A stretch of 64,000 bases of DNA from Halohasta litorea (GTDB taxonomy: Archaea > Halobacteriota > Halobacteria > Halobacteriales > Haloferacaceae), in the NCBI RefSeq assembly GCF_024494645.1, contig NZ_JANHDJ010000002.1, forward strand, positions 496,001 to 560,000, written 5' to 3'. Shown here piece after piece: positions 7,445 to 33,603 of the stretch. The first letter of the stretch is position 1; each line of letters opens with the position of its first letter. The notes beneath the pieces are model-generated. The model ran no database searches, was not told where the DNA came from, and was given only the letters and a program-made list of their open reading frames with translations. The position numbers were made by a program, and so were the translations under genes.

Positions 7445-8821
7445 CTACTCGGCGCGGGGTGACGGCTCGTCGACCGGATCGGCAGCCATCCGGCCAGCGA
7501 CAACTCCTGTGGCCAGCGAGACGCCGCTGGCGGATTTCTCGCGGGCGATGTCCGCGCCACCGACGACTGACCCGGCCGCATAGAGGTTTGCGAACTCGGG
7601 CTCACCAGCGGCATCGAGCGGCTGCATCGATTCGTTGGGTCGGACGCCGAACCGCGCGTAGGGGTGGTCGCCGAAGGCGTCGTCGACGAACCAGTCGTAC
7701 CGGTCGGCGGGCTGTGGAACGTGACAGTCGAACACCGGCTCCTGGACACGCTGGCGGTCGGAGTCGAGTCCCTTGCCGACGAAGCCACCGGTCGCCAACA
7801 CGAACTGTTCGGCGCTGTAGGGAACCTCCCGTCCCTTGTGGTCGACCCACACTGACTCGATGCGGTTCGGATCGTCCTCGCTCGTCTCGTAGCCGACGAC
7901 CGGGTTCCCCGTCTCGAACCGCACGCCTTCGGCATCGAGAGCGTCGTACAGTCGATCCTCAAGCCGGAGTCCGAGCAGGCTCGGCGGCCCCATCGGGATC
8001 TCGAAGACGTCGACGCCGAGTCGGTCGCCGAGGTCCGCCCGCACCTCGGTGGTGTGGTCGTCGCCGAGCAGCGCGGGAAAGCCGACCCGTTCGGCGTCGC
8101 CCAGGTGCGGCTCGACGGCTTCCACGAGTGCCTGGCGGGCGGGTGTGCCGTCGATCGGCTCGTCGTGATCGAGGGCCTTCGCGACGCGGGTGATCTTGGC
8201 GTCCGCGCCGAAGGCCTCGGCGAACTCGACTTCCGCGCCGGTCACATCGAACGGGACTCCGGCCAGTTCGAGGGAATCGGCGACCTGTCGGGCGTCGAAC
8301 TCGGTGAACGAGCGAACGCCGATTATCGTCATGGGTCGGCTATCGCTGGCGAGCCCGGCTGCGACCGCGCGCGGATACCGAGCGGTCGGTTTGACCGTCC
8401 CGCCGAAGGTCGGGACGAGCGCGTTTTTCTCGGTGTGACTGCCGAGATACATCTCGCCGGTCATTTCGTCGAACAACGCCAACCCCTCGCGGAGTGCATC
8501 CTCGCCGAGAATCGAGTAGGGATGAGTCGGCGGCAACGCCTCGATTTCGGTAAACGGGGTGACGAGTGGACCAGTGTACTCGCTGCGAGACGAACGAACG
8601 GTTCGGAAATCCTTCCGTCGCTGGGTGATCGTCTCGGAGGCGGCAGTATCGGTACGACTGGGGACGTAGCCGAGGCCATCGATCAGTCCCGAAGCCTGCC
8701 GAAGCGAGGTGCGCTTGTGGCAGACTAGCCGCACGTCAGCCCCTTCGCGGGCGGCCGCGATCGCACTCGTGATTCCGGCGAGGCCGCCGCCGACCACCAG
8801 GACCTCGCTTTCAATCGCCAT
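7445..8821 (-). CDS. glpB: GlpB-like anaerobic glycerol-3-phosphate dehydrogenase subunit B
   Basis: The frame can be extended upstream to 8884, but the ATG at 8821 ([20 protein letters not shown]) starts directly at the FAD-binding Rossmann motif and overlaps the glpA stop by 11 bases, so it is the better start. The 458-residue product has the GlpB pattern: [10 protein letters not shown] near residue 45 and a C-terminal FAD-binding segment around [28 protein letters not shown]. GlpB works with GlpA to oxidise sn-glycerol 3-phosphate to dihydroxyacetone phosphate. A GlpC subunit normally follows but is absent here. In this island it could act on another polyol phosphate. Confidence 0.88.
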
Positions 8822-12298: not shown

Positions 12299-13060
12299 AT
12301 GCTCCCGCTCGAACGAAGACAGGAGATCGTTAATTTGGTCAACGATAGTCAGGGCTGTTCGGTCGAGGAACTCGCCTCGGAGTTCGGCGTCTCGGAGACG
12401 ACGATCCGCCGTGATCTCCAGGAACTCAGCGAGCAGAACCTCATCGAGCGAACCCGCGGGGGTGCGATGCCGACGGTCAGCCGTGGCAAGGACTACGACA
12501 ACCGGAAGATCCACAACCTCGAAGCGAAAGCCGCCATCGGAGCCCGGGCCGTCGAAGAGATCCACCAAGAGGAGATCGTCATCTTCGACTGCGGGACGAC
12601 GACGTTCGAAATCGCAAAACAGGTCTCCACGGACCAGTCGTTCGTGCCGATGACGCCGATGCCGCTGATCGGGCGGGAGCTCGCCCAAAAGGGGTTCGAA
12701 ACCCACGTCACCGGCGGGCTGTACCGTCCGGAAAACTACACGGCAGTCGGGCCGTGGGCCGAGAAGTTCATCCAACAGACCAACGCCGACCTCTTTTTCC
12801 TCGGGACCGACGGGATCGACACCGACGGGCTCACGGCTCGAAACGTCCACCAACACCGGCTCAAGGAGCTCATGATCGAAAACGCGAAGCGGACCGTACT
12901 CGTCTCGGATCACACGAAGTTCGGTGACAACCATACGTTCCGCTTCGCCGAGCTCGACGCCGTCGACCTGTTTATAACGGATCGGGAGATTCCGGTGGAT
13001 ATCCGAGAAGCGTTTCGCTCCGCGGGCGTCGATCTCGTCGAAAACACTGATTCGGGCTAA
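12299..13060 (+). CDS. DeoR/GlpR-family transcriptional regulator
   Basis: This 253-residue protein has an N-terminal DeoR helix-turn-helix (LPLERRQEIVNLVN, then VEELASEFGVSETTIRRDLQELSEQNLIERTRGGA, residues 2-57). A DeoR-C sugar-phosphate sensing domain follows, with FDCGTTTFEIAKQ near residue 97, DLFFLGTDGID near 164 and KRTVLVSDHTKFG near 200. DeoR-type proteins in haloarchaea, such as GlpR of Haloferax, repress sugar metabolism genes and respond to phosphorylated intermediates. It lies between the membrane protein and the FGGY kinase and probably controls part of the island. The stop codon is inside the first copy of a 27-bp tandem duplication. Confidence 0.85.
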   Translation: MLPLERRQEIVNLVNDSQGCSVEELASEFGVSETTIRRDLQELSEQNLIERTRGGAMPTVSRGKDYDNRKIHNLEAKAAIGARAVEEIHQEEIVIFDCGTTTFEIAKQVSTDQSFVPMTPMPLIGRELAQKGFETHVTGGLYRPENYTAVGPWAEKFIQQTNADLFFLGTDGIDTDGLTARNVHQHRLKELMIENAKRTVLVSDHTKFGDNHTFRFAELDAVDLFITDREIPVDIREAFRSAGVDLVENTDSG

Positions 13061-13199: not shown

Positions 13200-14708
13200 C
13201 TATCGGGTACTCGTTCGGAGCGCCTCGTGTTCGTCCCAGGCGTCTTCCATCAGTACGGTGAGCTCCCGGAACGTCTCGTATTTCCGACCGAGATCCGTCT
13301 CGTTTGGCCGGTACTCCTCGGCGATCTCGACGTAGTCGGCGGTCTCTTCGAGGTCGTCGATCTCGCCGACGGCGATCGCCGCGAGCATGGCTGCACCGAA
13401 GCAGCCGGACTCTTCTTTGTCGGTGATCGTGATCGGCATCTCCAGGACGTCGGCGAACAGCTGCGACCAGAACTCGCTGCGGGCCGCCCCGCCGGTAAAG
13501 CGGATCTCATCGACGCCGAAGGCCTCGTCGTACTGCTCGATCTGCCAGCGGTGAACGAAGGCGATCCCCTCGTAGACCGCCCGGAGCATCTCCAGTCGGC
13601 CATCGGTCGCCGACAGCCCGGTGAAGCTCCCCGACGCGTTTTCCTGGTACATATAGCCGTAGGGGTTCCCGAAGAGGAACGGATGGAAGACGGCGTTGGT
13701 CTCGACGTCCTCGATCTGTTCCTCGATAATATCCCAGACCTCCATATCCTCGGCGTCGGCCTGCTGTTGTTCCGACTCGAAGAACTCGTCGACGAACCAG
13801 TCCGAGGAGATGGTGCCGGTCGGTTGGGCGATCTCCAACATCCACGTCCCGCGTTCGAGGAAGTTCTCACAACACCACGTATCGAGTTCAACCGAGGGCT
13901 CGTCGAGGACTTTCGTGCTGAGCGACCACGTGCCACCGGCGGTCGTGACGATATCACGGTCGATGGCACCGACACCCAGCGAGTTGACACAGGCGTCGTG
14001 GGCACCGGCGACCACGGGCGTGCCTTCGCTGATTCCCGTTTTCTCCTGGACTTCCTGGGTGGTGTAGCCGGCGATCTCGTGGCTCGATCCCTTCAGTTCG
14101 GGCAGTGCGTCGAAGGCGTCCGGCACGCCAGCGAGGTCAAAGATCTCCTCGTCGTAGTCCTGGGTCTGGTGGTGGGTGAAGCTGAACGTCGCATCGCTGA
14201 TCTCGAGGGCGAGCTCGCCGGTGAGCTTGTACCGCATGACGTCCTTGAGATTCAGGATGTGTTCGATCCGTTCGTAGCGCTCGGGTTCGTTTTCTTTCAG
14301 CCAGCGCAGCGAGAGGATCGCCGCCCCCGGCGGCACCGGAATCCCCGTCTTTTCGGAGATCGCAGTGTAGGTGCCATCTGATTTCCACTCCTGGATGATC
14401 CCCATCGCCCGTTCGTCGAGCAGCGGGATGCCGTTCATAAACGGCTCCCTGTTTTCATCGAGCGGATACAGCCCACCGCCGCCACCGCCCAGACCGATCC
14501 CCTCGACGGGTTCGTCGCCGGTCTGCGAGCGGAGTTCGCTGAGACACTCCAAGAGGAGATCCCACCGCTCGCCGATGGGGATCTCGTGGCGGTCTTCGCT
14601 CGTCGTTACCATTCCGGCCTCGATACCGTGTTTGCCGATCGTGTTCCACTCGGAGTCGAACGCGACGGCTTTCAGATTCGTGTGTCCGACGTCAATGCCG
14701 ATAAACAT
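13200..14708 (-). CDS. FGGY-family carbohydrate kinase (substrate unknown)
   Basis: The 502-residue protein has the two-domain FGGY layout. The N-terminal phosphate motif is MFIGIDVGHTNLKAVAFD. A glycine-rich GIGLGGGGGGLYPLDE stretch lies near residue 72. VVAGAHDACVNSLGVGAI near residue 236 supplies the catalytic Asp. FTGGAARSEFWSQLFADVLE near residue 402 forms the nucleotide-binding wall. It phosphorylates a polyol, ketose or sugar acid in the cytoplasm, and it does not resemble GlpK closely. It lies 104 bp downstream of the PdxA2-like gene on the same strand, with its own AT-rich promoter (near 14750-14770). A natural hypothesis is that it makes the 4-phosphate used by that enzyme. Confidence 0.85.
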   Translation of the reverse strand: MFIGIDVGHTNLKAVAFDSEWNTIGKHGIEAGMVTTSEDRHEIPIGERWDLLLECLSELRSQTGDEPVEGIGLGGGGGGLYPLDENREPFMNGIPLLDERAMGIIQEWKSDGTYTAISEKTGIPVPPGAAILSLRWLKENEPERYERIEHILNLKDVMRYKLTGELALEISDATFSFTHHQTQDYDEEIFDLAGVPDAFDALPELKGSSHEIAGYTTQEVQEKTGISEGTPVVAGAHDACVNSLGVGAIDRDIVTTAGGTWSLSTKVLDEPSVELDTWCCENFLERGTWMLEIAQPTGTISSDWFVDEFFESEQQQADAEDMEVWDIIEEQIEDVETNAVFHPFLFGNPYGYMYQENASGSFTGLSATDGRLEMLRAVYEGIAFVHRWQIEQYDEAFGVDEIRFTGGAARSEFWSQLFADVLEMPITITDKEESGCFGAAMLAAIAVGEIDDLEETADYVEIAEEYRPNETDLGRKYETFRELTVLMEDAWDEHEALRTSTR

Positions 14709-14812: not shown

Positions 14813-15817
14813 TTATTGGGCAGCAATCGCAGCCTGTGTGGCCGCGTTGAGCGCATCGAGCATGCTGTCGGGATCGGCGATTCCCGTTCCGGCGATGTCG
14901 AAGGCCGTTCCGTGCATCGTACTCGTCCGGATGATCGGGAGGCCGATGGTCATGTTGACACCGGCGGTGCCACCGCTTTCGAGCAGGCCGTGGACGTAGA
15001 CCGGAATGTGTCCCTGGTCGTGGTACATGGCGACGACGCCATCACAGCGTCCGACCGCCGCCTGATTGAACAGGTTGTCCGGCGCGTGGGGTCCCGTCGC
15101 GTCGATCCCCTCCTCGACGGCCTGCTCGACTGCGGGTTCGATCTCCTCGATATCCCGCGTGCCGAGGACGCCGCCTTCGCCCGCGTGGGGGTTGAGTCCG
15201 GCAACCGCGATGTTCGGATCCTCGATACCGAGATCGCGGAGTCCATCCGCGGTTACTCTGATCGTGTCCAGGACGTTTTCGGTTGTTACCGTCTCGATGG
15301 CCTCTTCGAGCGGGACGTGTACCGAGACGTGGGTTACCCGAATGTCTTTCTGGATCAGCAGCATCGAGTAGTTCTCCGTCCCAGTTCGATCCGCCAGCAG
15401 GTTGGTGTGGCCCTTGTAGTCGCTGCCAGCGAGCTCCATCGCCTTCTTGTTGAGCGGGGCGTTGCACATCGCATCGATGGTGCCCTCCATGGCGAGATCG
15501 ATTGCGGTTTCGAGGTAGTCGATGCCAGCCTGTCCGTACTCGGCGCGTGTCTCGCCGCGGACGACCTCGTCGACGTTGTCGAAGTCGACGACATCGAGGA
15601 CGTCGCGGTCGGCGGCAGCGTCTTCGACCGAGGCCACCTCGCGGAGTTCGATGTCGACGTCACAGGCCGCTAGAGCGTCTTCCATGACGTCCATATCACC
15701 GAGGACGGCATACCGGGCGTCCGCACTGAGCTGGGGATACGATTTAACGATGATTTCGCTTCCGATACCTGCAGGGTCACCCATAGTGATACCTATGGTT
15801 GGCAGTCGATCTGACAT
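14813..15817 (-). CDS. PdxA2-type 4-phospho-tetronate dehydrogenase (decarboxylating)
   Basis: The 334-residue product carries all PdxA signatures: GITMGDPAGIGSE at residues 8-20, NAPLNKKAM near 118, KGHTNLLAD, GLNPHAGEGG near 210, MYHDQGHIPVYVHG near 265 and RTSTMHGTAFDIAGTG near 300. The metal-binding His residues are retained. Vitamin B6 genes are not nearby and the context is catabolic, so it is better read as a PdxA2. Enzymes of that group oxidise and decarboxylate 4-phospho-D-threonate or related acids to dihydroxyacetone phosphate. PdxA2 usually goes with a DUF1537 kinase, and here an FGGY kinase takes that place. A TATA-like gtatatttataaatt at 15839-15853 indicates a leaderless transcript. 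Confidence 0.82.
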   Translation of the reverse strand: MSDRLPTIGITMGDPAGIGSEIIVKSYPQLSADARYAVLGDMDVMEDALAACDVDIELREVASVEDAAADRDVLDVVDFDNVDEVVRGETRAEYGQAGIDYLETAIDLAMEGTIDAMCNAPLNKKAMELAGSDYKGHTNLLADRTGTENYSMLLIQKDIRVTHVSVHVPLEEAIETVTTENVLDTIRVTADGLRDLGIEDPNIAVAGLNPHAGEGGVLGTRDIEEIEPAVEQAVEEGIDATGPHAPDNLFNQAAVGRCDGVVAMYHDQGHIPVYVHGLLESGGTAGVNMTIGLPIIRTSTMHGTAFDIAGTGIADPDSMLDALNAATQAAIAAQ

Positions 15818-16192: not shown

Positions 16193-16424
16193 GTCACATC
16201 ATATCTGTGTTAAAGAGCATAAAATTATACCTCATACACCAACAAAATTCTCTCCCGAATTCGGTTGTTAGTGGGTCTGCGGGGTGATTCCAGGCAGCTC
16301 GCGTTCTAGCCGCTGGAGTAACTATTAAATATGTGTGATCTAAACTGATAGCTGCGTTCGATCGTATCCAAACGAGTGCGTGCAGCGGAAGCGACTGTTG
16401 CACGAGACGGAGAGACAGCAATCA

Positions 16425-17078
16425 ATGACACAAGACCTCACACTACAGGAAGAACGGACCGCAGTAAGTGACCTCGGTCGACAGATGCTCGACCAGGGAC
16501 TGACGACCGGTACAGGCGGCAACATCAGCGCGCGTAACGGTGATCGAGTCGCGATCAGCCCCTCGGGAATGCCCTACGACGAGATCGACCCCGAAGACGT
16601 CCCGATCGTCGATCTCAACGGGAACCATCTCGAAGGCGACCGCAAGCCATCCAGCGAGTTCCGAATGCACACCGACGTCATCCGCGAACGCGACGATGTC
16701 GGCGGTGTCGTTCACACCCACTCGCCGTACGCCAGCACGTTCGCCAGCCTCGGTGAGCCGATTCCGGCCTCGCACTATCTGATCGCGTTTATCGGCAACA
16801 AAATCCCAGTGGCACCCTACGAGACGTATGGCACCGCCGAGCTCGCCGAGGCCGCCCTCGACGCCCTCGGCGAGGAGTACAACGCCTGTCTGCTGGAACA
16901 ACACGGTGTGCTGGCGGTCGGGGATTCGGTCGAAGCGGCCTTCGAGGTCGCGCTGATGGTCGAATACTGCGCCCGCATCCACTATCAGGCAGTGAGTATC
17001 GGTGAGCCGAATATCGTCCCCGACGAGGAGATCGAGACGCTGCTCGACCGCTTCGAGGACTACGGCCAGGACCACTAA
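16425..17078 (+). CDS. Class II aldolase (fuculose-phosphate aldolase / OtnC type), single domain
   Basis: The frame extends to a GTG at 16380, but the ATG at 16425 has a GGAGA-like site just upstream and matches the start of the paralogous domains. The 217-residue protein has the phosphate loop GTGGNIS near residue 29, catalytic Glu78 (SSEFRMH), zinc ligands His97 and His99 (VVHTHSPYAS) and His160 (LLEQHGVLAVG). Family members cleave ketose 1-phosphates to dihydroxyacetone phosphate and an aldehyde, epimerise pentulose phosphates, or decarboxylate 3-oxo-tetronate 4-phosphates. It faces the fused double-aldolase gene tail to tail and is closely similar to both of its domains. Confidence 0.85.
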   Translation: MTQDLTLQEERTAVSDLGRQMLDQGLTTGTGGNISARNGDRVAISPSGMPYDEIDPEDVPIVDLNGNHLEGDRKPSSEFRMHTDVIRERDDVGGVVHTHSPYASTFASLGEPIPASHYLIAFIGNKIPVAPYETYGTAELAEAALDALGEEYNACLLEQHGVLAVGDSVEAAFEVALMVEYCARIHYQAVSIGEPNIVPDEEIETLLDRFEDYGQDH

Positions 17079-17483: not shown

Positions 17484-18827
17484 TCAGTGGTCCTGACCGT
17501 AATCGGCGAACCGCTCCAGGAGGGTGTCGATTTCGGCGTCGGCGAGCAGATTGGGCTCGCCGATGTTGCGCGCCTGGTAGTGGATTCTCGCGCAGTATTC
17601 GACCATCAGTGCCACCTCAAAGGCTTCCTCGACGCTGTCGCCGACCGCCAGCACGCCGTGGTTCTCTAAGAGGCAAGCGTTGTACTCTTCGCCGAGGGCG
17701 TCGAGGGCGACCTCGGCGAGTTCGGCCGTCCCGTAGGTCTCGTAGGGGGCGACCGGGATCTGATCGCCCGCGAAGGCGATGAGGTAGTGGGAGGCCTCGA
17801 TGGGCTCGTTGAGGCTGGCGAAGGCGCTGGCATAGGGCGAATGGTTGTGGACGACCGCGCCCACGTCCTCGCGCTCCCGGAGGATGTCGGTGTGCATCCG
17901 GAACTCGCTGGAGGGGTCCCGTTTCCCGGCGACGTGTTCGCCGTTGAGGTCGACGACAGACACGTCCTCGGTCTCGATTTCGTCGTAGGGCATTCCCGAG
18001 GGGCTGATCGCCACGAGATCGCCGTTCTGGGAGCTGATGTTGCCCCCGGTGCCCTCGGTGAGGCCTTGGTGGAGCATCTTCCGGCCGAACTCGCTGACGG
18101 CCTTGCGGTTGGCCCGCAGCTCGGTGAGTCGGTCGGCCGACACGCTCACACCGGAATCCGGCTCGGCTCCCTCGTCGTCGGCCGACTGGGTTTGGCCGTA
18201 GTCGGCGAAGCGCTCCAGGAGGGTGTCGATTTCGGCGTCGTCTAAGAGACTCGGCTCGCCGATCGACAGGGCGTGGTAGTGGATGCGGGCGCAGTATTCG
18301 ACCATCAGCGCGACCTCGTAGGCCGCCTCCGCGGTCGCGCCCGTCGCCAGGACGCCGTGGTTCTCTAAGAGACAGGCGTTGTACTCCTCGCCGAGGGCAT
18401 CGAGGGCGACCTCGGCGAGTTCGGCCGTCCCGTAGGTTTCGTAGGGGGCAACCGGGATCTCGTCGCCGATAAAGGCGATGAGGTAATGAGAGGGGCCGAC
18501 CGCCTCGCCGATGCTGGCGAAGGTGCTGGCATACGGCGAGTGAGTGTGGACGACCGCGCCCACGTCCTCGCGCTCCCGGAGAACGTCGGTGTGCATCCGG
18601 AACTCGCTGGAGGGTTTGCGGTCGCCTTCGAGCTGCGTGCCGTCGACGTCGACGATCGCCACGTCCTCGGGCTCGATTTCGTCGTAGGCCATTCCAGAGG
18701 GGCTGATCGCCACGTTCCCGTCGTCGGTTTTCACACTAATATTTCCGCCAGTACCTTTGGTGAGGCCGTCGGCGAGCATTCGGCGGCCGAGCTCACTGAC
18801 TACCTGCTGGGCAGATGGGTCTGTCAT
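17484..18827 (-). CDS. Tandem-fused double class II aldolase, 447 aa
   Basis: Two complete class II aldolase domains (residues about 1-213 and 236-447) are joined by an acidic linker (QSADDEGAEPDSGVSVSAD). Domain 1 has GTGGNIS, SSEFRMH, VVHTHSPYAS and LLENHGVLATG. Domain 2 has the same elements with VVHNHSPYAS and LLENHGVLAVG. All zinc-ligand His and the catalytic Glu are therefore kept in both, so neither half is an obvious pseudo-domain. Domain 2 ends like the single-domain aldolase (DYGQDH). Class II aldolases are normally homotetramers of about 215-residue chains, so a fused dimer could assemble as two chains. It is divergent from the FGGY kinase gene at 18992. Confidence 0.85.
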   Translation of the reverse strand: MTDPSAQQVVSELGRRMLADGLTKGTGGNISVKTDDGNVAISPSGMAYDEIEPEDVAIVDVDGTQLEGDRKPSSEFRMHTDVLREREDVGAVVHTHSPYASTFASIGEAVGPSHYLIAFIGDEIPVAPYETYGTAELAEVALDALGEEYNACLLENHGVLATGATAEAAYEVALMVEYCARIHYHALSIGEPSLLDDAEIDTLLERFADYGQTQSADDEGAEPDSGVSVSADRLTELRANRKAVSEFGRKMLHQGLTEGTGGNISSQNGDLVAISPSGMPYDEIETEDVSVVDLNGEHVAGKRDPSSEFRMHTDILREREDVGAVVHNHSPYASAFASLNEPIEASHYLIAFAGDQIPVAPYETYGTAELAEVALDALGEEYNACLLENHGVLAVGDSVEEAFEVALMVEYCARIHYQARNIGEPNLLADAEIDTLLERFADYGQDH

Positions 18828-18991: not shown

Positions 18992-20527
18992 ATGAGCCGA
19001 GTACTCATCGGTGTCGACGCAGGCACCTCTAACCTCAAAGCCGCAGCGTTCGATCTCGATGGCGAGCAGATCGAGGTCGCAACAATCGAAAACCCGGTCG
19101 AAACGCCCCAGTCAGGGTGGCAGGTGCAGAACATGACCACCAACTGGAAGAAGACCGCCACCGTCATCAGCGAGGTCGTCGAGGACCTCGGGGATCACCA
19201 CGAAATTCTCGGCATCGGGATCACGGGCCAGGGCGACGGCTGCTGGCTCATCGACGAAGACGGCGATCCGGTCCGCGATGCGATCCTCTGGTCTGACGGT
19301 CGGGCCTCCGAGATCGTCGACGACTGGGTCGACAACGGGAAGGCCGACGTGATCCGGGAGGCTACTGGCACCGACATCTTCCCCGGCGTCACGCTGCCGA
19401 TCATGCAGTGGCTGGTCGAAAACGAGCCCGAAACCCTCGAAGAAGCTGATACGGTCTTTTACTGTAAGGACTGGCTGAAATTCAAACTCACCGGCGAGCG
19501 GACGATGGACTACAGCGACGCGACCCTGCCGTTCCTGGATATCGAGTCCCGGGAGTACTCCGATGAAGTCCAGGAACTGGTCGACTTCGACGGCGTCGAC
19601 GATCTCCTCCCGCGGCTCGCGCCGCCGACCGAGATCATCGGCGAGGTGACCGGCGATGCCGCGGTCGAAACCGGACTCCCCGAAGGCACACCCGTTATTT
19701 CAGGTGTCTTCGACATCCCGGCCAACGCCATCGGCAGCGGCGCGGTCCGGCCCGGCGAGAGTTCCTCTATCGTGGGGACGACCTCGCTGAACCAGACCGT
19801 GCTAACCGAGCCGCCCGAGGAGCTACTGGGTCGGGGCTTTACGCTCGCGGTCGACGAGGGGTTCTACCTCCGATCGATGGCGTCGATGGCGGGCACACCC
19901 AACATCGACTGGTCCTACGAGAACATCGCCAACAACCGGGAGTTCGCCGATGTCGAAAGCGAGATCGAGGAGCTCCCTGTCGGCTCCGAGGGACTGCTGT
20001 ATCACCCCTACCTGAGCTCCTCGGGCGAGCGAAACCCGTTCCTCAAGACGAGCGCCCGCGCCCAGTTCATCGGGCTGTCGCCGGAACACGGCCAGAAACA
20101 CATGATGCGGGCGATCTACGAGGGCGTCGCCCTGGCGATGCGTGACTCCTTCGAACACATCCAAGTCGAGTCCGACCGGATCATGATCGCCGGCGGCGGC
20201 TCCCGCTCCGACTTTTGGTGTCAGATGTTCGCCGACTGTCTTGACGCCCCCATCGTCCTCCCGGAGGGCGACGAACTCGGCGCGAAAGGTGCGGCCCTCC
20301 TAACGGGGGTCGCCCTCGGCGAGTACGACGACCTCGAAGCGGCGGTCGACCGAACCGTTCGGACCACCGACCGCTTCGAGCCCGACCCGCAAAAAGTCCC
20401 CAAATACGACGAGTGGTACGAGTTCTACCACGACGCCTACCGGGCGATGTTCGACGTCTGGGACGACCGCGTCGAAACGCTCGAACGGCTCAAAGACAAA
20501 CAAAGTACGACGCCAGCAGCGCAGTGA
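18992..20527 (+). CDS. FGGY-family carbohydrate kinase (xylulokinase / erythritol-kinase-like)
   Basis: The 511-residue protein has GVDAGTSNLKAAAFDLDG at residues 7-24, GIGITGQGDGCWLIDEDGDP near residue 72, the domain-2 catalytic loop VISGVFDIPANAIGSGAV near 233 and AGGGSRSDFWCQMFADCLDAP near 396. The GQGDGCWL element resembles that of LyxK and EryA-type kinases rather than glycerol kinase, so a tetritol, ketose or similar polyol is a plausible substrate. It is only distantly similar to the other FGGY kinase of the island, so the two probably act on different compounds. It is followed on the same strand by the DgoD-like and IclR genes. Confidence 0.85.
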   Translation: MSRVLIGVDAGTSNLKAAAFDLDGEQIEVATIENPVETPQSGWQVQNMTTNWKKTATVISEVVEDLGDHHEILGIGITGQGDGCWLIDEDGDPVRDAILWSDGRASEIVDDWVDNGKADVIREATGTDIFPGVTLPIMQWLVENEPETLEEADTVFYCKDWLKFKLTGERTMDYSDATLPFLDIESREYSDEVQELVDFDGVDDLLPRLAPPTEIIGEVTGDAAVETGLPEGTPVISGVFDIPANAIGSGAVRPGESSSIVGTTSLNQTVLTEPPEELLGRGFTLAVDEGFYLRSMASMAGTPNIDWSYENIANNREFADVESEIEELPVGSEGLLYHPYLSSSGERNPFLKTSARAQFIGLSPEHGQKHMMRAIYEGVALAMRDSFEHIQVESDRIMIAGGGSRSDFWCQMFADCLDAPIVLPEGDELGAKGAALLTGVALGEYDDLEAAVDRTVRTTDRFEPDPQKVPKYDEWYEFYHDAYRAMFDVWDDRVETLERLKDKQSTTPAAQ

Positions 20528-20667: not shown

Positions 20668-21816
20668 ATGGAAATCACCGGCTACGAACTGTTCGCCGTG
20701 CCGCCACGGTGGCTCTTTCTCAAACTCGAAACCGACACCGGGATCTGCGGCTGGGGCGAACCCATCGTCGAAGGCCACACGAAGACGACCCGCGCGGCCG
20801 TCGAGGAGATCCTGGACAACTACCTGATCGGCAAAGATCCCCTGGAGATCGAGCGCCACTGGCAGGCGATGTATCGGGGTCGACACTTCCGCGGCGGCCC
20901 GATTCTGATGAGCGCCATCGGCGGCATCGACCAGGCGCTGTGGGATATCAAGGGCAAACGGTACGACGCGCCGGTGTACGAACTGCTCGGCGGGCGGGCC
21001 CGCGACCGAATCCGGACCTACCAGTGGATCGGCGGTGACACGCCCGAAGAGATCGCCGATGCGGCCGAAGCCGCCGTCGACAACGGCTACAAAACGCTGA
21101 AACTCTCGGTCTCACAGTTCCGCCGGATCGACTCCCCGGCTGCAGTCACCCACGCCCGCGACCGGCTCGCGGCGGTTCGAGAGCGGGTCGGCGACGGGAT
21201 CGACGTTGGCGTCGACTTCCGTGGCCGGGTCACCAAGTCGATGGCTCCATCGCTCGCCGAGAAACTGGCTCCCCTCGATCCGATGTTCTACGAGGAGCCC
21301 GTCCTCTCGGAGCACGCCGATTCTCTCGGCGACATTGCGGCCCACACGACCGTGCCGCTGGCGATCGGCCAGCGGCTCTACTCGCGGTGGGATGTCGCGC
21401 CCCTGATCGAAGACAGGGCGGTCGACGTCCTCCAGCCGTCGCCCTCACACGCGGGCGGCATCTCGGAGGTCCGCAAGATCGCCACCAGCGCCGAGGCCGC
21501 CGATATCCTCGTCTCGCTGCACTGTCCGCTCGGGCCGATCTCGCTTGCGGCCTGCCTCCAACTCGATATGGCGATCCCGAACGCGATCGTCCAGGCCCAG
21601 AGTCTCGATCTCCACCAACCCCAAGAGAACGATCTCCTGGCGTATCTCGACGATCCGACGGTGTTCGGCTTCGCCGACGGCTACCTCACTGCGCCCGACG
21701 CTCCCGGCCTCGGAATCGAGGTCGACGAGTCGGTCGTCCGCGAGCAGGCCCAGTCGGATATCAACTGGCAGAACCCGATCTGGTACCACGACGACGGCAG
21801 CATCGCCGAGTGGTAG
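20668..21816 (+). CDS. DgoD-like enolase-superfamily protein with substituted active-site residues
   Basis: This 382-residue protein is alignable end to end with D-galactonate dehydratase DgoD (PPRW, GGPILMSAIGGIDQALWDIKG, HCPLGPISLAACL, DGSIAEW). Asp183 and Glu209 metal ligands and His285 remain. However, the position of the general acid His185 is Arg (VDFRGRV), the third metal ligand Glu235 is Gln (IGQRLYSR), the Asp258 that supports His285 is Ser (LQPSPSHAGG), and Glu310 is Ala (VQAQSL). The DgoD numbering and sequence are recalled, not looked up. It is therefore unlikely to be a normal galactonate dehydratase and may be repurposed or non-catalytic. No 2-keto-3-deoxy-sugar acid kinase or aldolase is in the window. 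Confidence 0.85.
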   Translation: MEITGYELFAVPPRWLFLKLETDTGICGWGEPIVEGHTKTTRAAVEEILDNYLIGKDPLEIERHWQAMYRGRHFRGGPILMSAIGGIDQALWDIKGKRYDAPVYELLGGRARDRIRTYQWIGGDTPEEIADAAEAAVDNGYKTLKLSVSQFRRIDSPAAVTHARDRLAAVRERVGDGIDVGVDFRGRVTKSMAPSLAEKLAPLDPMFYEEPVLSEHADSLGDIAAHTTVPLAIGQRLYSRWDVAPLIEDRAVDVLQPSPSHAGGISEVRKIATSAEAADILVSLHCPLGPISLAACLQLDMAIPNAIVQAQSLDLHQPQENDLLAYLDDPTVFGFADGYLTAPDAPGLGIEVDESVVREQAQSDINWQNPIWYHDDGSIAEW

Positions 21817-21876: not shown

Positions 21877-22659
21877 ATGGTAGACGTCTCGGAGTTCCCA
21901 GTGACGGCGACAGGGACCAGCGTGCAGATCCTCGAAACGCTCATCGAACGCAACGGAGCGGGTGTGACCGAAATCGCGGACGTCCTGGACCGCTCGAAGA
22001 GTTCGGTACATAATCACCTGGAGACACTCACCGGCCTCGGATTCGTTATCAAAGACGGCTACGACTACCGCGTCAGCCTTCGGTTCCTGACGATCGGCTC
22101 GTATGCACGCTCGCAGTATCCGCTGTACGCAGCCGGGGTGAGCGAGGTCGCCCAACTGTCGACCGCTTCGGGCTGTTCGGCCGGGTTAGCGGTCCTCGAA
22201 GGCGACAGTGTGGTCTGTCTGCATCACCGGCTTGGCCCGGATACTGATACCCCGCGGGTCGAGGCGGGCGACCGGCTGCCGCTGGACTGTACGGCCGCCG
22301 GAAAGGCGATCCTCGCGGCGCTCGGCGAAGCGCGCCGCGACGAGCTGCTGGCGGGGCATACCTTCGACAGCGGCACCGGCCAGTCCCATTCGAGCCGGTC
22401 GGAACTCGACGCCGAACTCGGGACCGTCCGGACCCGCGGCCTCGCCGTCGACCGCGAGGAGTGGTATCCCGATCAGCGCGGGATCGCGGCCGCTGTCGAA
22501 GGTGTCGACGGCGAGCTGCGGGGGGCGATCTATCTGCTGACCGCCACCGAAGGTCTCTCCGGCAAGCGGTTCCAACAGGATCTGCCCGGACTCGTCATCA
22601 GTTCGGCCAATAGCATCCGGAACACGCTTCGAGAATCCGAAACAGGATGCCGAGAGTGA
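21877..22659 (+). CDS. IclR-family transcriptional regulator, candidate regulator of the island
   Basis: The 260-residue protein has an N-terminal winged HTH (SVQILETLIERNGAGVTEIADVLDRSKSSVHNHLETLTGLGFV, residues 12-54). An IclR effector domain follows, with LDCTAAGKAILAALGE near residue 138, RGLAVDREEWYPDQRGIAAAV near 188 and ISSANSIRNTL at the end. IclR proteins sense small carbon compounds, and haloarchaeal members control pentose and sugar-acid catabolism. One palindrome A copy lies in its promoter and two more lie within 120 bp of its stop codon, which makes it the leading candidate for the protein that binds this motif. It is probably leaderless. Confidence 0.88.
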   Translation: MVDVSEFPVTATGTSVQILETLIERNGAGVTEIADVLDRSKSSVHNHLETLTGLGFVIKDGYDYRVSLRFLTIGSYARSQYPLYAAGVSEVAQLSTASGCSAGLAVLEGDSVVCLHHRLGPDTDTPRVEAGDRLPLDCTAAGKAILAALGEARRDELLAGHTFDSGTGQSHSSRSELDAELGTVRTRGLAVDREEWYPDQRGIAAAVEGVDGELRGAIYLLTATEGLSGKRFQQDLPGLVISSANSIRNTLRESETGCRE

Positions 22660-25494: not shown

Positions 25495-27795
25495 TTACCG
25501 GCCGAACAGCCGGTCGATCAGCGACCGCTCCTGTGGCCGTTCGGCCAGCAGTACCGATGAATCGACGTCGTTGAGCACGTCGAAGGCCAGCGAGCCGCGA
25601 ACCAGCCGCGAGAGCAGCCCCTCGCGGGTCGCGCCGATGATCACCATCGAGTGGTCGGTGGCATGGTGAGCGATCGCACCCTCGACGTCGCCGGAGGTGT
25701 CCACAGTCAGGTTGGCCGCATCAAGCCCGCGGTCGGCGGCCCACTCTTCGAGGAACGCCTCGCCGTCGGCCTGCTCGGATTCGTCGTCGGCGACGTACAG
25801 CAGCGAGACATTCGACCCTTCGTTGAGGAGGATCTCCGCGATTTCTGCACTGAGATCCGAACTGTAGCCACCTGCCGTCGGCACCAGCACGTCCGAGAGG
25901 TCGAACCCGCGGTCCTTCATCACGAGGAAGTCACACGGGAGGTCGCTGGTCAGTTCATCCAGCGGACTCTCGACGCGACCGGCCGACAGCGCCGAGTCGC
26001 TACCACCCCACCCCATCACGACCAGATCCGCGTTGTCCGTTTTCGCGGCGTCGAAGACTTCCTCGAAGGAGCGATGCGAGAGGATCGTCTTCGTCTCGAC
26101 GGGCGCGCCGAACGTTTCGGCGTCCTCGCGGGCGGCCTCCAGGAGCTTCTCGGATTCGGCATCGATCCGGTCGACGTGTTCGGAGCCCGCATACAGCGGC
26201 GTCTGATCGGGCACCTGGACGATATGCGTGGCGACGACAGTGCCGCCTTTCGCCTTGGCGATCAGGCTCCCGAGTTCGATCAGGTCTCGCTCGGTTCGAG
26301 GGTTCGACAGCGGCACCATCACACGGTACTCGCCGCCGTCGGGTTTGACCGAGGAGGCCGCAGAGACCGCGGCGTCGGGCATCTCCTCGGACTGCGAGAG
26401 GATGTACTCCGAGAGCACCCCCTCGGCGGTCGTCCGCGAGCGGGCGTAGGCGAAATACCAGACGACCGACAGCGCCACGAAGATCCCACAGAGGACGAGC
26501 GAACTCCGTGGCCGGATAAAGCCGATCAAGGCGAACGAGAGGACGGCACCGAGAATCGGGACGATCGGGTACAGCGGGACGGTAAACTCCGGCTCGTACT
26601 CGTCGGGGTCGGCCTCACGCATCACGACCAGTCCGATGTTCAACAGCCCGTAGACGACCAGATGAAGGACGCTCCCGGCAGTCGCCAGCAGTTCGAGGTT
26701 GCCGACGAGGATGAACAACACGATCAGCCCACCGGTGAGCGCGATCGATTTGTACGGCGTACCGAACCGGTCGTGGACCTCGTTGAGTTCCGGCGAGACG
26801 ATCTTATCGCGGCCCATCGCGAAGTTGATCCGCGACGACGAGAGGATCGAGGCATTGGCCGACGATGCGGTCGCCAACAGCCCGCCGAACAGCAGTGCCA
26901 GTGCTCCCAGCGGCCCCATCAGGAGCTGGGCGACATCGACTACTGCGGTATCGTTGCCAGCCACAACCTCGTTCGGCACGGCCGCCAACACCGCCAGCAG
27001 CACCAGCGCGTAGATCACCGTCACGATGACGACGCTGCCGACGATGGCGATCGGGAGATTGCGGCCGGGGTCCTGGATCTCCTCGGCGACCGAGGTAATC
27101 TGGACGAAACCGAGATAGGAGACGAAGATCAGCCCGGTCAGCGGGAGCAGTGGCGTGTATCCTTCCGGCGCGATCGGTCGCAGCGTTTCGAGATCGGCGT
27201 TGAGCACGCCGAACAGCGTGAAGACGGTCAGAATCCCCAGCAGCGTGAAGACGATGATGTTCTGCAGCTTCCCCGTCTCCTTTGCGCCGAAGTAGTTCAC
27301 CGAAACGAAGAATACGGCCCCCAGCAGGGCGATGATTTTGGCGCTCGACAGCGGGATCGGCGCGAGAAGCGTTCCCGGTACATTGAGAACCGTGATGAGC
27401 AGATCGCCGAACGGGGCCGCCTCGAAAATGGAGATGAACAGCGGTTTAAAAGCAATCACGTACTCGCCGAAGCCGAACATATAAAAGGCGGAGGCAAAAG
27501 TGAGCCCGATCCAGTTGCCCCACCCCGCGATGGAGCCGAACATCGGTCCGAGCGAGCGGTTGATATAGAAGTATGCGCCGCCCGATTTGGGCATCGCCGT
27601 CCCGAGTTCGCTGGCCGACAGCGCGGTAAAGATCGCAATGAAGCCGCCGAGAACGAATGCCCCGGCCGCGAGCGGTCCAGCCTGCTCGACGGCCGCCCCC
27701 GGCAGGACGAAGATCCCCGCGCCGATCATCGTCCCGATCCCGATGGTCAGCGCCGAGGTCAGTGTCAGGTCCTTGGCGAGTTCGTCGTCGCTCAT
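25495..27795 (-). CDS. APC-superfamily amino acid permease with two C-terminal Usp domains
   Basis: The 766-residue protein has an N-terminal permease of about 12 helices (residues 10-450), starting TSALTIGIGTMIGAGIFVLPG and containing the APC signature region PKSGGAYFYINRSLGPMFG near 70. Two universal-stress-protein domains follow, at about 490-620 (YRVMVPLSNPRTERDLIELG, DLVVMGWGG) and 630-750 (DVLVPTAGGYSSDLSAEIAE, SMVIIGATREGLLSRLVRGS). The second carries the Gly-rich ATP-binding pattern. Permeases of this layout are annotated as cationic amino acid transporters in haloarchaea. The Usp part probably regulates transport by nucleotide binding (inference). It is a tandem paralogue of the gene at 27945. 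Confidence 0.88.
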   Translation of the reverse strand: MSDDELAKDLTLTSALTIGIGTMIGAGIFVLPGAAVEQAGPLAAGAFVLGGFIAIFTALSASELGTAMPKSGGAYFYINRSLGPMFGSIAGWGNWIGLTFASAFYMFGFGEYVIAFKPLFISIFEAAPFGDLLITVLNVPGTLLAPIPLSSAKIIALLGAVFFVSVNYFGAKETGKLQNIIVFTLLGILTVFTLFGVLNADLETLRPIAPEGYTPLLPLTGLIFVSYLGFVQITSVAEEIQDPGRNLPIAIVGSVVIVTVIYALVLLAVLAAVPNEVVAGNDTAVVDVAQLLMGPLGALALLFGGLLATASSANASILSSSRINFAMGRDKIVSPELNEVHDRFGTPYKSIALTGGLIVLFILVGNLELLATAGSVLHLVVYGLLNIGLVVMREADPDEYEPEFTVPLYPIVPILGAVLSFALIGFIRPRSSLVLCGIFVALSVVWYFAYARSRTTAEGVLSEYILSQSEEMPDAAVSAASSVKPDGGEYRVMVPLSNPRTERDLIELGSLIAKAKGGTVVATHIVQVPDQTPLYAGSEHVDRIDAESEKLLEAAREDAETFGAPVETKTILSHRSFEEVFDAAKTDNADLVVMGWGGSDSALSAGRVESPLDELTSDLPCDFLVMKDRGFDLSDVLVPTAGGYSSDLSAEIAEILLNEGSNVSLLYVADDESEQADGEAFLEEWAADRGLDAANLTVDTSGDVEGAIAHHATDHSMVIIGATREGLLSRLVRGSLAFDVLNDVDSSVLLAERPQERSLIDRLFGR

Positions 27796-27944: not shown

Positions 27945-30191
27945 TTACCGGCCGAACAGTCGCTCTTTGAGCGACCGTTTCTGTGGCCGTTCGGCCAACA
28001 GCACCGACGAGTCGACGTCGTTGAGAACCTCGAAGGCCAGCGAGCCGCGGACCAGCCGCGAGAGCAGTCCCTCACGGGTGGCGCCGATAATGACCATCGA
28101 GCGGTCTTCGGCGTGGCGGGCGATGGCGTCCTCGACGTCGCCGGTGGTGTCGACGATCCGCTCGGCGTCGTCGAGCCCCCGTTCGGCGGCCCACTCCGAG
28201 AGGAACGTCTCGCCCTCGCTTTGTTCGGACTCGTCGTCGACGACGTACAGCAGCGAGACGTCCGACCCCTCTTCGAGGAGTACCTCGGCGACCTCGGCGC
28301 TGAGATCCGAGCTGTATCCGCCTGCAGTGGGAACCAACACATCCGAGAGGTCGAAGCTGCGGTCTTTCAGCACTAGGAAGTCACACGGCAGGTCGCCCGT
28401 GAGTTCGTCCAGCGGACTTTCGACGCGGCCCGCCGCCAGCGGGGAGTTCGGGTTCCACCCCATCACGACGAGATCGGCCTCGTCGCTCCGGGCGGCGTCG
28501 AAGACCTCCTCGAACGACCGATGAGAGACGACCGTTTTAGTCTCGACATCCGCGTCGAAGGTGTTGGCGTCCTCGCGGGCGGCCTCCAGGAGCTTCTTCG
28601 ATTCGGCATCGATCCGGTCGACGTGTTCGGAGCCCCCATACAGTGGCGTCTGATCGGGGACCTGGACGATGTGTGTGGCGACGACAGTGCCGCCCTTGGC
28701 TTTCGCGATGAGGCTACCGAGTTCGATCAGATCCTTCTCCGTTCGGGGGTTCGACAGCGGGACCATCACGCGATAATCGCTGTTGTCGGGCTGGACGGTC
28801 GAGGCAGCCGAGACGGCCGCGTCCGGCATTTCGTCGGCCCGATCCAACACGTACTGGCCGAGATAGCCCTGATGGTCGGTCTCGCCGCGCGCATAGAGGA
28901 AGTACCACGAGACCGCGACGACGACGAACAGCGCCGACAGCGCGATCTCGTTGGGATTCATAAAGCCGATCAGCGCCAGCGAGAGGATCGTTCCCACGAT
29001 GGGGGTGATCGGGTACAGCGGCACCCGGAAGTCCGGATCGTACCCCTCCGGATCAGTCTCCCGGAAGACGATGAGCGCGACGTTCATCAGCGCGTACACC
29101 ATCAAGTGGAGCACGCTCGCTGCCTTGGCGAGGATTTCGAGGTCCCGGCCGAGGAACGCGATCAACACGAGGATCATCCCGCCGGTGAGCGCGATCGAAC
29201 GGTACGGCGTCGCGTAGTTGGGGTGGATCTCGTTGAGCCAGTCGGTGACGATCTTGTCGCGGCCCATCGCGAAGTTGATCCGGGCCGACGAGAGGATCGA
29301 GGCATTCGCGCTTGAGGCGGTCGCCAACAGTGCGCCGAGCGTCATGATCGTCGCGGCGATTCCTGCCAGTCCGCCGGGGAAGGCGACACGTGCAGCGTCG
29401 GCGACCGGCGCGTCGAGGCTGAGTTCCGGCCACGGGACGACGCCGAGCATCACGGTGACGAGAATCGCATAGATGACCGTCACGATGCCGACACTGCCGA
29501 TGATCGCAATCGGCAAATTGCGTCCTGGATTCTTCATCTCCTCGGCGACGGTTGCGATCTTCGCATAGCCGAGAAACGAGACGAACACGAGCGCGGTCGC
29601 CGGAAGTATTGCGCCGTAGCCTTCGGGTGCGAGTCCCCCCTCGCTGATGAGCCTCGCGTAGTCGAACGAGAGCCAGCCAGCGATAGCGAACACACCGAGG
29701 ATCGCAAGCAGCGTAAAGACGATAACCGTCTGAATACTGCCGGTCTCCTTGGCTCCGATGTAGTTGATGGCGACGAAAATTCCGCCCGCAATCAGCGCGC
29801 CGATCTGGATGTCGTTGAGAAACAGGACGCCGGGGATCGGCGCGAGCGTCGACAGATACTGGCCGAAGCCGATGCTGTAAAACGCGCTCGCAAAGGCGAG
29901 TCCCATCCAGTCGCCGAGTCCCGCAATCGAGCCGAACATCGGCCCTAAGGCACGGTTGACGTAGTAGTAGCCCCCACCGGCTTTCGGCATCGCCGTCCCG
30001 AGTTCCGAGATCGACAAGGCGTTGACCATCGCGATCACGCCGCCGACAACAAAGGAAACGACGACGATCGGCCCGGCCTCCTGGGCCGCCACCCCAGGCA
30101 GCACGAAGATACCGGCCCCGATCATCGTCCCGATCCCGATGGTCATCGCCGAGACGAGGCCGAGGTCCTTGGCGAGTTCCTCGTCACCCAT
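27945..30191 (-). CDS. APC-superfamily amino acid permease with two C-terminal Usp domains (paralogue)
   Basis: The 748-residue protein has the same layout as its downstream neighbour: permease part at residues 10-430 (TIGIGTMIGAGIFVLPG, PKAGGGYYYVNRALGPMFGS) and two Usp domains near 475-605 and 610-740. The Usp halves of the two paralogues are much more alike than the membrane halves, with long identical stretches such as VPLSNPRTE and IELGSLIAKAKGG. This fits a tandem duplication followed by transporter divergence or by gene conversion at the 3' ends. The two genes are 149 bp apart and may form a unit. Substrate differences cannot be read from sequence. Confidence 0.88.
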   Translation of the reverse strand: MGDEELAKDLGLVSAMTIGIGTMIGAGIFVLPGVAAQEAGPIVVVSFVVGGVIAMVNALSISELGTAMPKAGGGYYYVNRALGPMFGSIAGLGDWMGLAFASAFYSIGFGQYLSTLAPIPGVLFLNDIQIGALIAGGIFVAINYIGAKETGSIQTVIVFTLLAILGVFAIAGWLSFDYARLISEGGLAPEGYGAILPATALVFVSFLGYAKIATVAEEMKNPGRNLPIAIIGSVGIVTVIYAILVTVMLGVVPWPELSLDAPVADAARVAFPGGLAGIAATIMTLGALLATASSANASILSSARINFAMGRDKIVTDWLNEIHPNYATPYRSIALTGGMILVLIAFLGRDLEILAKAASVLHLMVYALMNVALIVFRETDPEGYDPDFRVPLYPITPIVGTILSLALIGFMNPNEIALSALFVVVAVSWYFLYARGETDHQGYLGQYVLDRADEMPDAAVSAASTVQPDNSDYRVMVPLSNPRTEKDLIELGSLIAKAKGGTVVATHIVQVPDQTPLYGGSEHVDRIDAESKKLLEAAREDANTFDADVETKTVVSHRSFEEVFDAARSDEADLVVMGWNPNSPLAAGRVESPLDELTGDLPCDFLVLKDRSFDLSDVLVPTAGGYSSDLSAEVAEVLLEEGSDVSLLYVVDDESEQSEGETFLSEWAAERGLDDAERIVDTTGDVEDAIARHAEDRSMVIIGATREGLLSRLVRGSLAFEVLNDVDSSVLLAERPQKRSLKERLFGR

Positions 30192-31758: not shown

Positions 31759-33603
31759 CTACGACTCCAGCTGCGGTTCGGTTCGTTCGTGTCGCCCCCG
31801 TCCGAACAGCCGCTTGAGCAGCGAGCGCGAGGAGGGCCGTTCGGCCAAGAGCACCGAACACTCGACGTCGTGGACGACGTCGAGATGGAGCGAATCGGTC
31901 GCCAGCCGCGAGAGCAGTCCCTTCTCGGTCGCGCCGATCGCGATCAGTGTCGCATCCCGGGCCTCGCGTTCGATGGCCGCCTCGACATCGCCGGAGTCGT
32001 CGACGATGAAGGCGGCGTCTTCGAGCCCGTGGTCCTCGGCCCACGTTTCCAGGAAGGCTTCGCCCACCTCGCGGTCGGCGGGACTGTCGACGACATGGAG
32101 CAGCGCGACCTCCGCGTCGGTCGTCGCCTGCAGGGCCGCCGCAACCTCGGCGCTGAGCCCCGAGTCCGGGCCCCCGGCGGTCGGAATCAGGATACGTGAG
32201 GTGTCGAGCCCGCGGTCGTTGATGATGGCGAAATCACAGGGCAGCTGGTTGGTGATCTCGTCGAGGGGTCGCTCGGCACGGGCGGCGTTCCAGAGCTGAT
32301 CCTCCCCCCACTCCATAACGACCATATTCGGTCGGGTGCGGCGGGCCATGTCGAAGACCTCCTCGAAGGAGTGGTGGCTGGCGAGCGACGAGACCCTGAT
32401 GTTGATGCCACACTCCTCGCCGAGGGCGTAGATATCGGCCATCCGCTTGTCGGATTCGGCCTCGATCCGTTCGGAGTTGCCGCCCGTTGCCAGCGACATC
32501 TTCTCGGGTGCCTGGACGATGTGGACGACGTGGACGGTGGCGTTTTCCCGGTTGCTGGCGACCCGGCAGGCGAGTTCGACGATCGGGATATCCGTCCGTG
32601 GGTTCGTGATCGGCACCATGATTCGGTAGCGGTCCTCGCCGACAAGGGCGGCCTCGGCGGCATCCAGGATCGGCACGTACGACCGGCCCGCAAACCGGCC
32701 GAAGGTCCATTCGGGAAGGGTGAGCCGACGGTCGAGCCCTTCGAACCGGGCGGATTCGAGCCGCTCTTCGCTCGTCTGGAAGTAGTTGACCACCGTCACC
32801 AACACCACCCCGCCGAGGGTGTTCCCAAGCAGGACGGGCAGTACGAAACTGGTCATCCCGGTGAACAGTGAGTAGTTCGTCTCCAAGACGAGATAGATGA
32901 CCTCGGTAAATGAAACCACAACGTGGAACAGGTTGCCGTTGGGGATCGCAAGGAAGGCGAGATAGACGACCAAGAGCCGCGAGACGGTATCACCTGCTGC
33001 AAACCCGACCCAGACGACACCGGCGACGATGAGTCCGGCGAAGACGGCCTTGAAAAACAGCGACCACCACTCGGTCTGCAGCGCCCCTTTCTCGGCGATC
33101 TCGATGGCTTTGAGTTGGCTTTCGGGTTCGAAAATTCCGCCGTAGACCAGCGAGACCGCACCCATTGCCCCCCCGAGGAAGTTGCCCGCCAGCACGATGC
33201 TCCAGTGGCGAAACAGCGTCGGAATACTCGCCAGCCGTTCGAGCGTCAGCGCGACCGGCGGCAGCGTGTTTTCGGTGTACAGCTGGTAGCCACCGATGAT
33301 GATATAAATAAATCCAAGCGGGTACAGCAGCGTGCCGACGACGGCGTTGTCGGCGGCCGCCGACATCGAGACATAAAGCAGGAAGGTGATCGTGATCGCA
33401 AAGCCAGCGGCGACTGCACTGAAGAACAGTTCGCGGCTCCCGGAGGTTACCTCCTCGTCGGCCGCCGCCACGACGCGCTGAAACACTTCATCCGCCGAAA
33501 ACCGGTCGCGGAGGACCTCGCCGACCGCGGGCGCGCCGCTCCTGGATCGCTCGACGGCATCCCGAACCGAATCTTCCGGTTCCCTCTCGTTCGACTCACT
33601 CAT
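31759..33603 (-). CDS. Formate/nitrite transporter (FNT) family protein fused to two Usp domains
   Basis: The 614-residue protein has an N-terminal FNT-type channel, residues about 55-285, with six hydrophobic segments (SAVAAGFAITITFLLYVSM, IVLAGNFLGGAMGAV, AIPNGNLFHVVVSFTEVIY, LLGNTLGGVVLVTVVNYF). The GNFLGG and GNTLGG turns match the FNT pore repeats. Two Usp domains follow (330-465 and 470-595, ending LIAIGATEKGLLSRLA). Canonical FNT proteins are about 270 residues and carry formate, nitrite or hydrosulphide, so the Usp extension is a haloarchaeal elaboration. The formate dehydrogenase-like genes at the start of the window make formate a possible substrate. Confidence 0.82.
   Translation of the reverse strand: MSESNEREPEDSVRDAVERSRSGAPAVGEVLRDRFSADEVFQRVVAAADEEVTSGSRELFFSAVAAGFAITITFLLYVSMSAAADNAVVGTLLYPLGFIYIIIGGYQLYTENTLPPVALTLERLASIPTLFRHWSIVLAGNFLGGAMGAVSLVYGGIFEPESQLKAIEIAEKGALQTEWWSLFFKAVFAGLIVAGVVWVGFAAGDTVSRLLVVYLAFLAIPNGNLFHVVVSFTEVIYLVLETNYSLFTGMTSFVLPVLLGNTLGGVVLVTVVNYFQTSEERLESARFEGLDRRLTLPEWTFGRFAGRSYVPILDAAEAALVGEDRYRIMVPITNPRTDIPIVELACRVASNRENATVHVVHIVQAPEKMSLATGGNSERIEAESDKRMADIYALGEECGINIRVSSLASHHSFEEVFDMARRTRPNMVVMEWGEDQLWNAARAERPLDEITNQLPCDFAIINDRGLDTSRILIPTAGGPDSGLSAEVAAALQATTDAEVALLHVVDSPADREVGEAFLETWAEDHGLEDAAFIVDDSGDVEAAIEREARDATLIAIGATEKGLLSRLATDSLHLDVVHDVECSVLLAERPSSRSLLKRLFGRGRHERTEPQLES

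Follow-up and report, generated by a model that had tools for sequence, protein, structure and literature searches.

A haloarchaeal relative of D-galactonate dehydratase with four replaced active-site residues, possibly a ligand-binding pseudoenzyme beside kinase and aldolase genes

The gene at 20668-21816 of the window (the whole 64,000-nucleotide stretch of Halohasta litorea DNA that was analysed) encodes a protein that would usually be named galactonate dehydratase. This name is almost certainly wrong, because the residues needed for the reaction are mostly lost and the neighbouring genes belong to a different sugar-breakdown route. Judged from its residues, the protein is very unlikely to dehydrate galactonate, since the general acid, the partner of the base and the enolate-stabilising Glu have been lost. 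Our preferred reading, to which we give a probability of about 0.5, is that the protein is a ligand-binding pseudoenzyme in a kinase-aldolase sugar pathway; the loss of catalysis, the ligand binding and the pathway substrate are the parts that we infer. A sequence-only reading of this DNA had proposed a non-dehydratase. That proposal is now well supported by the replacement of the acid, the dyad Asp, the third metal ligand and E310, by the placement of the protein in a distinct clade (clade A), and by a different gene neighbourhood, with KDPG(al) aldolase genes not beside clade-A copies.

The open reading frame starts with ATG and encodes 382 amino acids with both domains of the enolase superfamily (Pfam MR_MLE_N/C) and the fold of the mandelate racemase subgroup. 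The product is accepted by the NCBIfam galactonate dehydratase equivalog NF010624, with a score of 562.7 bits against a cut-off of 311. The best PDB match found by phmmer was 3rr1 (412 bits over residues 3-382; next-best match, 189 bits), the structure of the Ralstonia pickettii enolase PRK14017, which we take to represent D-galactonate dehydratase DgoD (PRK14017 / NF010624). The alignment to 3rr1 contained only two compensating one-residue gaps; an alignment to the 382-residue DgoD had earlier been described as gapless, and its register holds apart from these two indels. The AlphaFold model of the product (pLDDT 90.7, pTM 0.90) matched 3rr1 in Foldseek with a TM score of 0.92 and 48% identity over 382 columns, confirming the DgoD fold and register. 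Because the phmmer alignment is near-gapless and the structure matches, the register and the residue numbering are secure, and a shifted alignment is ruled out. The numbering used in the earlier reading agrees with the 3rr1 alignment, and the superposition that had been proposed as a check does not support shifted catalytic positions. The gene and its key codons are as follows.

20668-21816, + strand: DgoD-derived protein of clade A ("DgoD-R"), identified by ORF and translation, Pfam MR_MLE_N/C, NF010624 and PDB 3rr1
21214-21216, + strand: codon 183, metal ligand Asp183 retained (invariant)
21220-21222, + strand: codon 185, Arg replacing the general acid His185 (clade A, R in 14/17 and S in 3/17; ordinary relatives, H in 76/76)
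21292-21294, + strand: codon 209, metal ligand Glu209 retained (invariant)
21370-21372, + strand: codon 235, Gln replacing the third metal ligand Glu235 (Q in Halohasta only, 4/4; E in 12/17 of clade A)
21439-21441, + strand: codon 258, Ser replacing the dyad Asp258 (Ser shared by Halohasta and Haloferax massiliensis; two further clade-A lineages have N)
21520-21522, + strand: codon 285, base His285 retained (H in 16/17 of clade A)
21595-21597, + strand: codon 310, Ala replacing Glu310 (A, S or G throughout clade A)

The roles given to these residues (acid, dyad, metal ligands, enolate-stabilising Glu310) are presumed from family knowledge of DgoD. The residues at positions 183/185/209/235/258/285/310 are D R E Q S H A in this protein and D H E E D H E in ordinary relatives. 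Thus, the third of the acidic metal ligands D183/E209/E235 is Gln, the general acid His185 is Arg, the His285-Asp258 base dyad has its His but Ser in place of Asp, and Glu310 is Ala. These four replacements, with D183, E209 and H285 kept, were as the earlier reading had listed them; the alignment added one pocket change that it had missed, N147 to Ser. The motifs flanking each replaced site are intact (DFRGR, AIGQR, QPSPSHAGG and QAQS). All four replacements are identical in the four Halohasta genomes examined, indicating that they arose neither by chance nor by sequencing error. The metal ligand had also been called lost. Glu235 is indeed replaced, but loss is less certain, as the side-chain oxygen of Gln can ligate Mg and an L004-type haloarchaeal family, described below, also has Gln at this position.

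Relatives were collected by scanning genome contigs and by searching genomes at class, order and genus level, giving 106 distinct full-length sequences. The 76 ordinary relatives compared, haloarchaeal and bacterial, all have the pattern D H E E D H E at the seven positions. The corresponding residues are D R E E S H A in Haloferax massiliensis, D R E E D H A in Halobellus and genome G132, D R E E D H S in Natrialba (clade A) and genome G087, D S E E D H G in Halapricum and relatives, and D R E G D Q A in a Halobacteriales MAG (clade A). D R E E D N D is the pattern of a second group, clade B, found in Natrialba, Natrinema, Halomicrobium and others. In a tree computed with six key catalytic columns left out, support was 100/99 for clade A (17 rows), 100/98 for clade B (8 rows) and 100/99 for Halohasta, and Haloferax massiliensis was the sister of Halohasta (89/90). 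A single origin of H185R for clades A and B was not rejected (p-AU 0.265). A literature search found no paper on clade A.

The tree and the residue states together give the order of loss along the Halohasta lineage: H185 and E310 were lost first, then D258, and E235 last. Clade A shares H185R/S and E310A/S/G, D258S is confined to Halohasta and Haloferax massiliensis, and E235Q to Halohasta. The phylogeny that had been suggested thus reveals a haloarchaeal clade sharing two of the changes, but the full set only in Halohasta, and the four replacements, earlier treated as one event, are layered in time. Other lineages of clade A lost the same residues separately: Gly replaced E235 in that of the MAG, and Asn replaced D258 in two more. 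Over a tree length of 9.9, ordinary relatives showed zero changes at positions 185/235/258/285/310; clade A showed ten over a tree length of 5.5, with E235 lost twice and D258 three times. K145, D183 and E209 did not change anywhere on the tree.

The firm contrast is the one between clade A and the ordinary relatives, in which these positions stay constant across a tree nearly twice as long. Within clade A, a small sample of 17 distinct sequences, the excess of events at catalytic over other conserved positions was weak (P = 0.07, or 0.12 for positions 235/258/285 alone). By entropy, catalytic positions were more variable than other conserved ones (P = 0.002), but this contrast ignores kinship and includes N147, which was picked after seeing the data. 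A strong statistical claim of catalytic erosion was dropped on account of the event-based P of 0.07.

Gene linkage was counted within 8 kb of the DgoD-type gene for 15 clade-A, 42 ordinary and 13 clade-B genes, sorted by residue state. The neighbours in the window are listed here with these counts.

6890-7336, - strand: HbpS/GlcG-like protein (Pfam HbpS-like), in the conserved cluster by synteny
7445-8884, - strand: GlpB-like subunit, start codon uncertain, overlapping GlpA (NCBIfam NF003722, 690 bits); near 7/15 clade-A genes
8811-10502, - strand: GlpA-like FAD glycerol-3-phosphate dehydrogenase (NCBIfam TIGR03377, 691 bits); near 9/15 clade-A genes
12299-13060, + strand: GlpR-type DeoR-family regulator (NCBIfam NF041397, 358 bits, cut-off 300)
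13200-14708, - strand: second FGGY kinase (Pfam FGGY), adjoining PdxA
14813-15817, - strand: PdxA-type dehydrogenase (Pfam PdxA; NCBIfam TIGR00557, 340.9 bits)
16380-17078, + strand: single-domain class II aldolase (Pfam Aldolase_II)
17484-18827, - strand: two-domain class II (FucA-like) aldolase (Pfam Aldolase_II, two stretches); near 13/15 clade-A genes
18992-20527, + strand: FGGY carbohydrate kinase, 140 bp upstream on the same strand (Pfam FGGY_N/FGGY_C); near 12/15 clade-A and 0/42 ordinary genes
21877-22659, + strand: IclR-type transcriptional regulator, 60 bp downstream on the same strand (Pfam IclR_C, HTH_IclR); near 14/15 clade-A and 0/42 ordinary genes

PdxA was near 2/15 clade-A genes, and the kinase-PdxA pair also adjoins the clade-A gene in Halobellus. 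Kinase, aldolase, IclR, GlpA and PdxA genes were all missing within 8 kb of the 42 ordinary and the 13 clade-B genes. In several genomes the clade-A cluster also contains a D-2-hydroxyacid dehydrogenase and an ABC transporter. The two-domain aldolase exceeds the cut-offs of both the fuculose-phosphate aldolase (NF005302) and the ribulose-1-phosphate aldolase (NF053831) models when scores are summed over both domains. It adjoins the single-domain aldolase on the opposite strand, and the similar opening motifs of the two suggest a local duplication and fusion. The GlpA gene has a 64% identical paralogue in the same genome (G000:C28:304494-306155), which adjoins a glycerol-kinase-like FGGY gene. 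The PdxA family includes D-threonate 4-phosphate dehydrogenase; the PdxA-type protein here scored 273 bits with the D-threonate model, below the cut-off of 583. Farther along the window, 25495-27795 (-) and 27945-30191 (-) encode, in tandem, two closely similar transporter-like proteins (766 and 748 amino acids), apparently with amino-acid permease and stress-protein domains; the next transporter, at 31759-33603, is of the formate/nitrite type with Usp domains.

In six genomes (G105, G200, G267, G286, G348 and G384), ordinary copies have a KDPG(al) aldolase gene (PF01081) at a distance of 2-12 kb; no such gene was found adjoining any clade-A copy. Two of these genomes, G267 and G348, carry a clade-A copy elsewhere besides the aldolase-linked ordinary copy. 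The earlier observation that 2-keto-3-deoxy-acid genes are absent nearby extends to the window's contig (C23), on which no PF01081 or PF00701 gene was found. On another contig of the same genome (G000:C2:2144-3817), two stretches of the DHDPS family contain in-frame TAG codons and are probably broken genes. Ordinary haloarchaeal DgoD copies are likewise linked to KDPG(al) aldolase genes in published work (PMC3102087). A haloarchaeal FucA-type ribulose-1-phosphate aldolase yields dihydroxyacetone phosphate, and a Halohasta FucA homologue was left without assignment in the same study (PMC9700705). By analogy with these data, dihydroxyacetone phosphate is a likely product of the Halohasta pathway.

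The DgoD-like protein is maintained by purifying selection. Among pairs of the four Halohasta genomes its gene showed dN/dS of 0.06-0.19, compared with a median of 0.22 for ordinary relatives at similar dS. The adjacent kinase, aldolase and GlpA genes are more strongly conserved (0.05-0.10), and the DgoD-like protein changes about twice as fast as their products (85% vs 90-96% identity). The frame is intact and full-length in all four Halohasta genomes and in every other clade-A genome, and 116 of the 143 positions conserved in ordinary relatives are unaltered in all four Halohasta proteins. Several pocket residues have changed across clade A: R37H (14/17), V41T (15/17), F73H (14/17), Y74F (16/17) and P284L (16/17), all of them present in Halohasta. 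Since the N-terminal capping domain contributes specificity in the enolase superfamily, the changes suggest that the ligand is a different one. The retention of R37H, V41T, F73H and Y74F in Halohasta argues that ligand binding may still be under selection.

We propose that the gene descends from that of a haloarchaeal D-galactonate dehydratase, an enzyme that it would no longer encode. In the ancestor of clade A, H185 and E310 would have been replaced and the substrate pocket remodelled. The gene would then have become tied to a phosphorylative route with an FGGY kinase, a FucA-like aldolase, a GlpA-like flavin dehydrogenase and an IclR regulator, in which the aldolase would yield dihydroxyacetone phosphate. 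On the branch leading to Haloferax and Halohasta, Ser took the place of the Asp that pairs with the base (D258S), and Gln later replaced the third metal ligand in Halohasta. With H185, E310, D258 and E235 lost step by step, the Halohasta protein would most likely no longer carry out enolisation. It is probably a stably folded protein whose ligand is a sugar acid or a sugar phosphate from the pathway, and which relays a signal to its neighbours or assists them.

Features expected of a pseudoenzyme in this superfamily are found here: the fold is kept, essential catalytic residues are lost and the gene is conserved by selection. Counting against it, D183, E209, K145 and H285 are retained and 12/17 clade-A members have all three metal ligands, so that an altered metal-dependent enzyme is possible. 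We rank the pseudoenzyme above an active enzyme with a new reaction, which is nevertheless a serious, if tentative, candidate because Gln can ligate metal and the clade-A pocket is remodelled. Clade A would then have been re-specialised on another sugar acid and would feed the kinase-aldolase route, for example as a C2 epimerase, an isomerase or a different lyase, with Arg185, Lys145 and His285 as acid/base and Gln235 ligating Mg through its amide oxygen. The invariance of K145, D183 and E209 and the near-invariance of H285 in clade A fit such an activity, as do a pocket that is remodelled yet conserved across the clade, purifying selection as strong as among ordinary relatives, and the L004-type family, in which Gln occupies the third-ligand site and the dyad Asp is replaced by Ser, Thr or Ala. 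Glucarate dehydratase, with Asn as third metal ligand, offers a further precedent. However, clade A, unlike clade B, has not fixed its new residues (185 R/S, 310 A/S/G, 258 D/S/N, 235 E/Q/G, 285 H/Q), and a protein without the E310 equivalent and the Asp that pairs with the base should be far poorer at enolisation.

A relic, that is, a dispensable duplicate losing its function and retained through linkage to useful neighbours, would explain why catalytic residues disappeared stepwise in this lineage and why the protein changes faster than its neighbours. It is improbable in view of the intact full-length genes in Halohasta and the rest of clade A, the low dN/dS and the many conserved positions left unaltered; the dN/dS values and intact frames also disfavour a decaying pseudogene. 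Least probable is a still-working dehydratase of D-galactonate or a similar aldonate with catalytic residues supplied from shifted positions. The NF010624 score far above cut-off speaks for it, but the register is fixed by alignment and structure, the motifs at each site are intact, and KDPG(al) aldolase genes are absent nearby. Searches of the Halohasta genomes turned up no ordinary DgoD, which also makes an inactive or regulatory subunit of an active DgoD unlikely. The second copy in Halohasta genome G068 also belongs to clade A (L117, in L122; R185, N258, A310; 63% identity); it lies about 11 kb from L007 and is accompanied by an IclR regulator, an aldolase and a 2-hydroxyacid dehydrogenase of its own.

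The equivalog model NF010624 accepts clade-A and clade-B proteins at 556-564 bits despite their missing catalytic residues, and so gives the name galactonate dehydratase to at least two haloarchaeal groups without essential dehydratase residues. A class for such cases, "missing functionally important residues", exists in the literature (PMC2781113). Clade A provides a natural series of intermediate states derived from a well-studied dehydratase within a conserved gene cluster, and since the series exists in present genes, the order in which catalytic residues become dispensable is directly testable. The enolase superfamily is a textbook case for new reactions evolving on one fold. More tentatively still, the residue patterns may reflect a living series from enzyme to pseudoenzyme in one conserved cluster, with the Halohasta protein as a sugar-acid or sugar-phosphate sensor for the kinase-aldolase pathway. 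If so, the successive states across related haloarchaea would be loss of the acid and E310, then of the dyad Asp, then of the metal ligand.

Compared with DgoD (3rr1), the Halohasta protein has the same fold, length and register, 48% identity, the ligands D183 and E209 and the base H285. It differs in H185R, E235Q, D258S, E310A and N147S, in the capping-domain pocket (R37H, V41T, F73H, Y74F), and in lying amid FGGY kinase, FucA-like aldolase, GlpAB and IclR genes. Clade B is similar in H185R, the loss of E310, acceptance by NF010624 and a common origin with clade A that was not rejected. It differs in its retained metal ligands, in H285N, E310D and N147D, and in its neighbours, which include a DgaE-like lyase, a BshB-like deacetylase and a solute-binding protein. 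The residues 147D, 185R, 285N and 310D are fixed in clade B, as would be expected of a re-specialised enzyme. Its genes lie in the match regions L082, L083, L085, L087, L089, L090, L094-L097, L100, L102 and L105; several of them adjoin the DgaE-like PLP lyase and the BshB-like deacetylase, and clade B is possibly a new aminosugar-acid enzyme that is also misnamed galactonate dehydratase. A second enolase-superfamily gene in the Halohasta litorea genome, L004 (G000:C29:253822-254832, -), encodes a protein 27% identical to the DgoD-like protein. Like the latter, the conserved L004-type haloarchaeal family carries Gln in place of the third ligand in every member seen, combined with Ser, Thr or Ala where the dyad Asp would be, and retains Asp, Glu and His, but it is an unrelated subfamily; by sequence inspection, the neighbours of L004 resemble an SDR, a TctC-type binding protein and an MmgE/PrpD-like protein. 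The ManD / RspA subgroup has a related mandelate-racemase-subgroup fold but keeps the third Glu ligand and the acid His, and has a long insertion missing from the Halohasta protein. Aligned RspA-type proteins have Thr at the position of Asp258, indicating that the His-Asp dyad is not universal.
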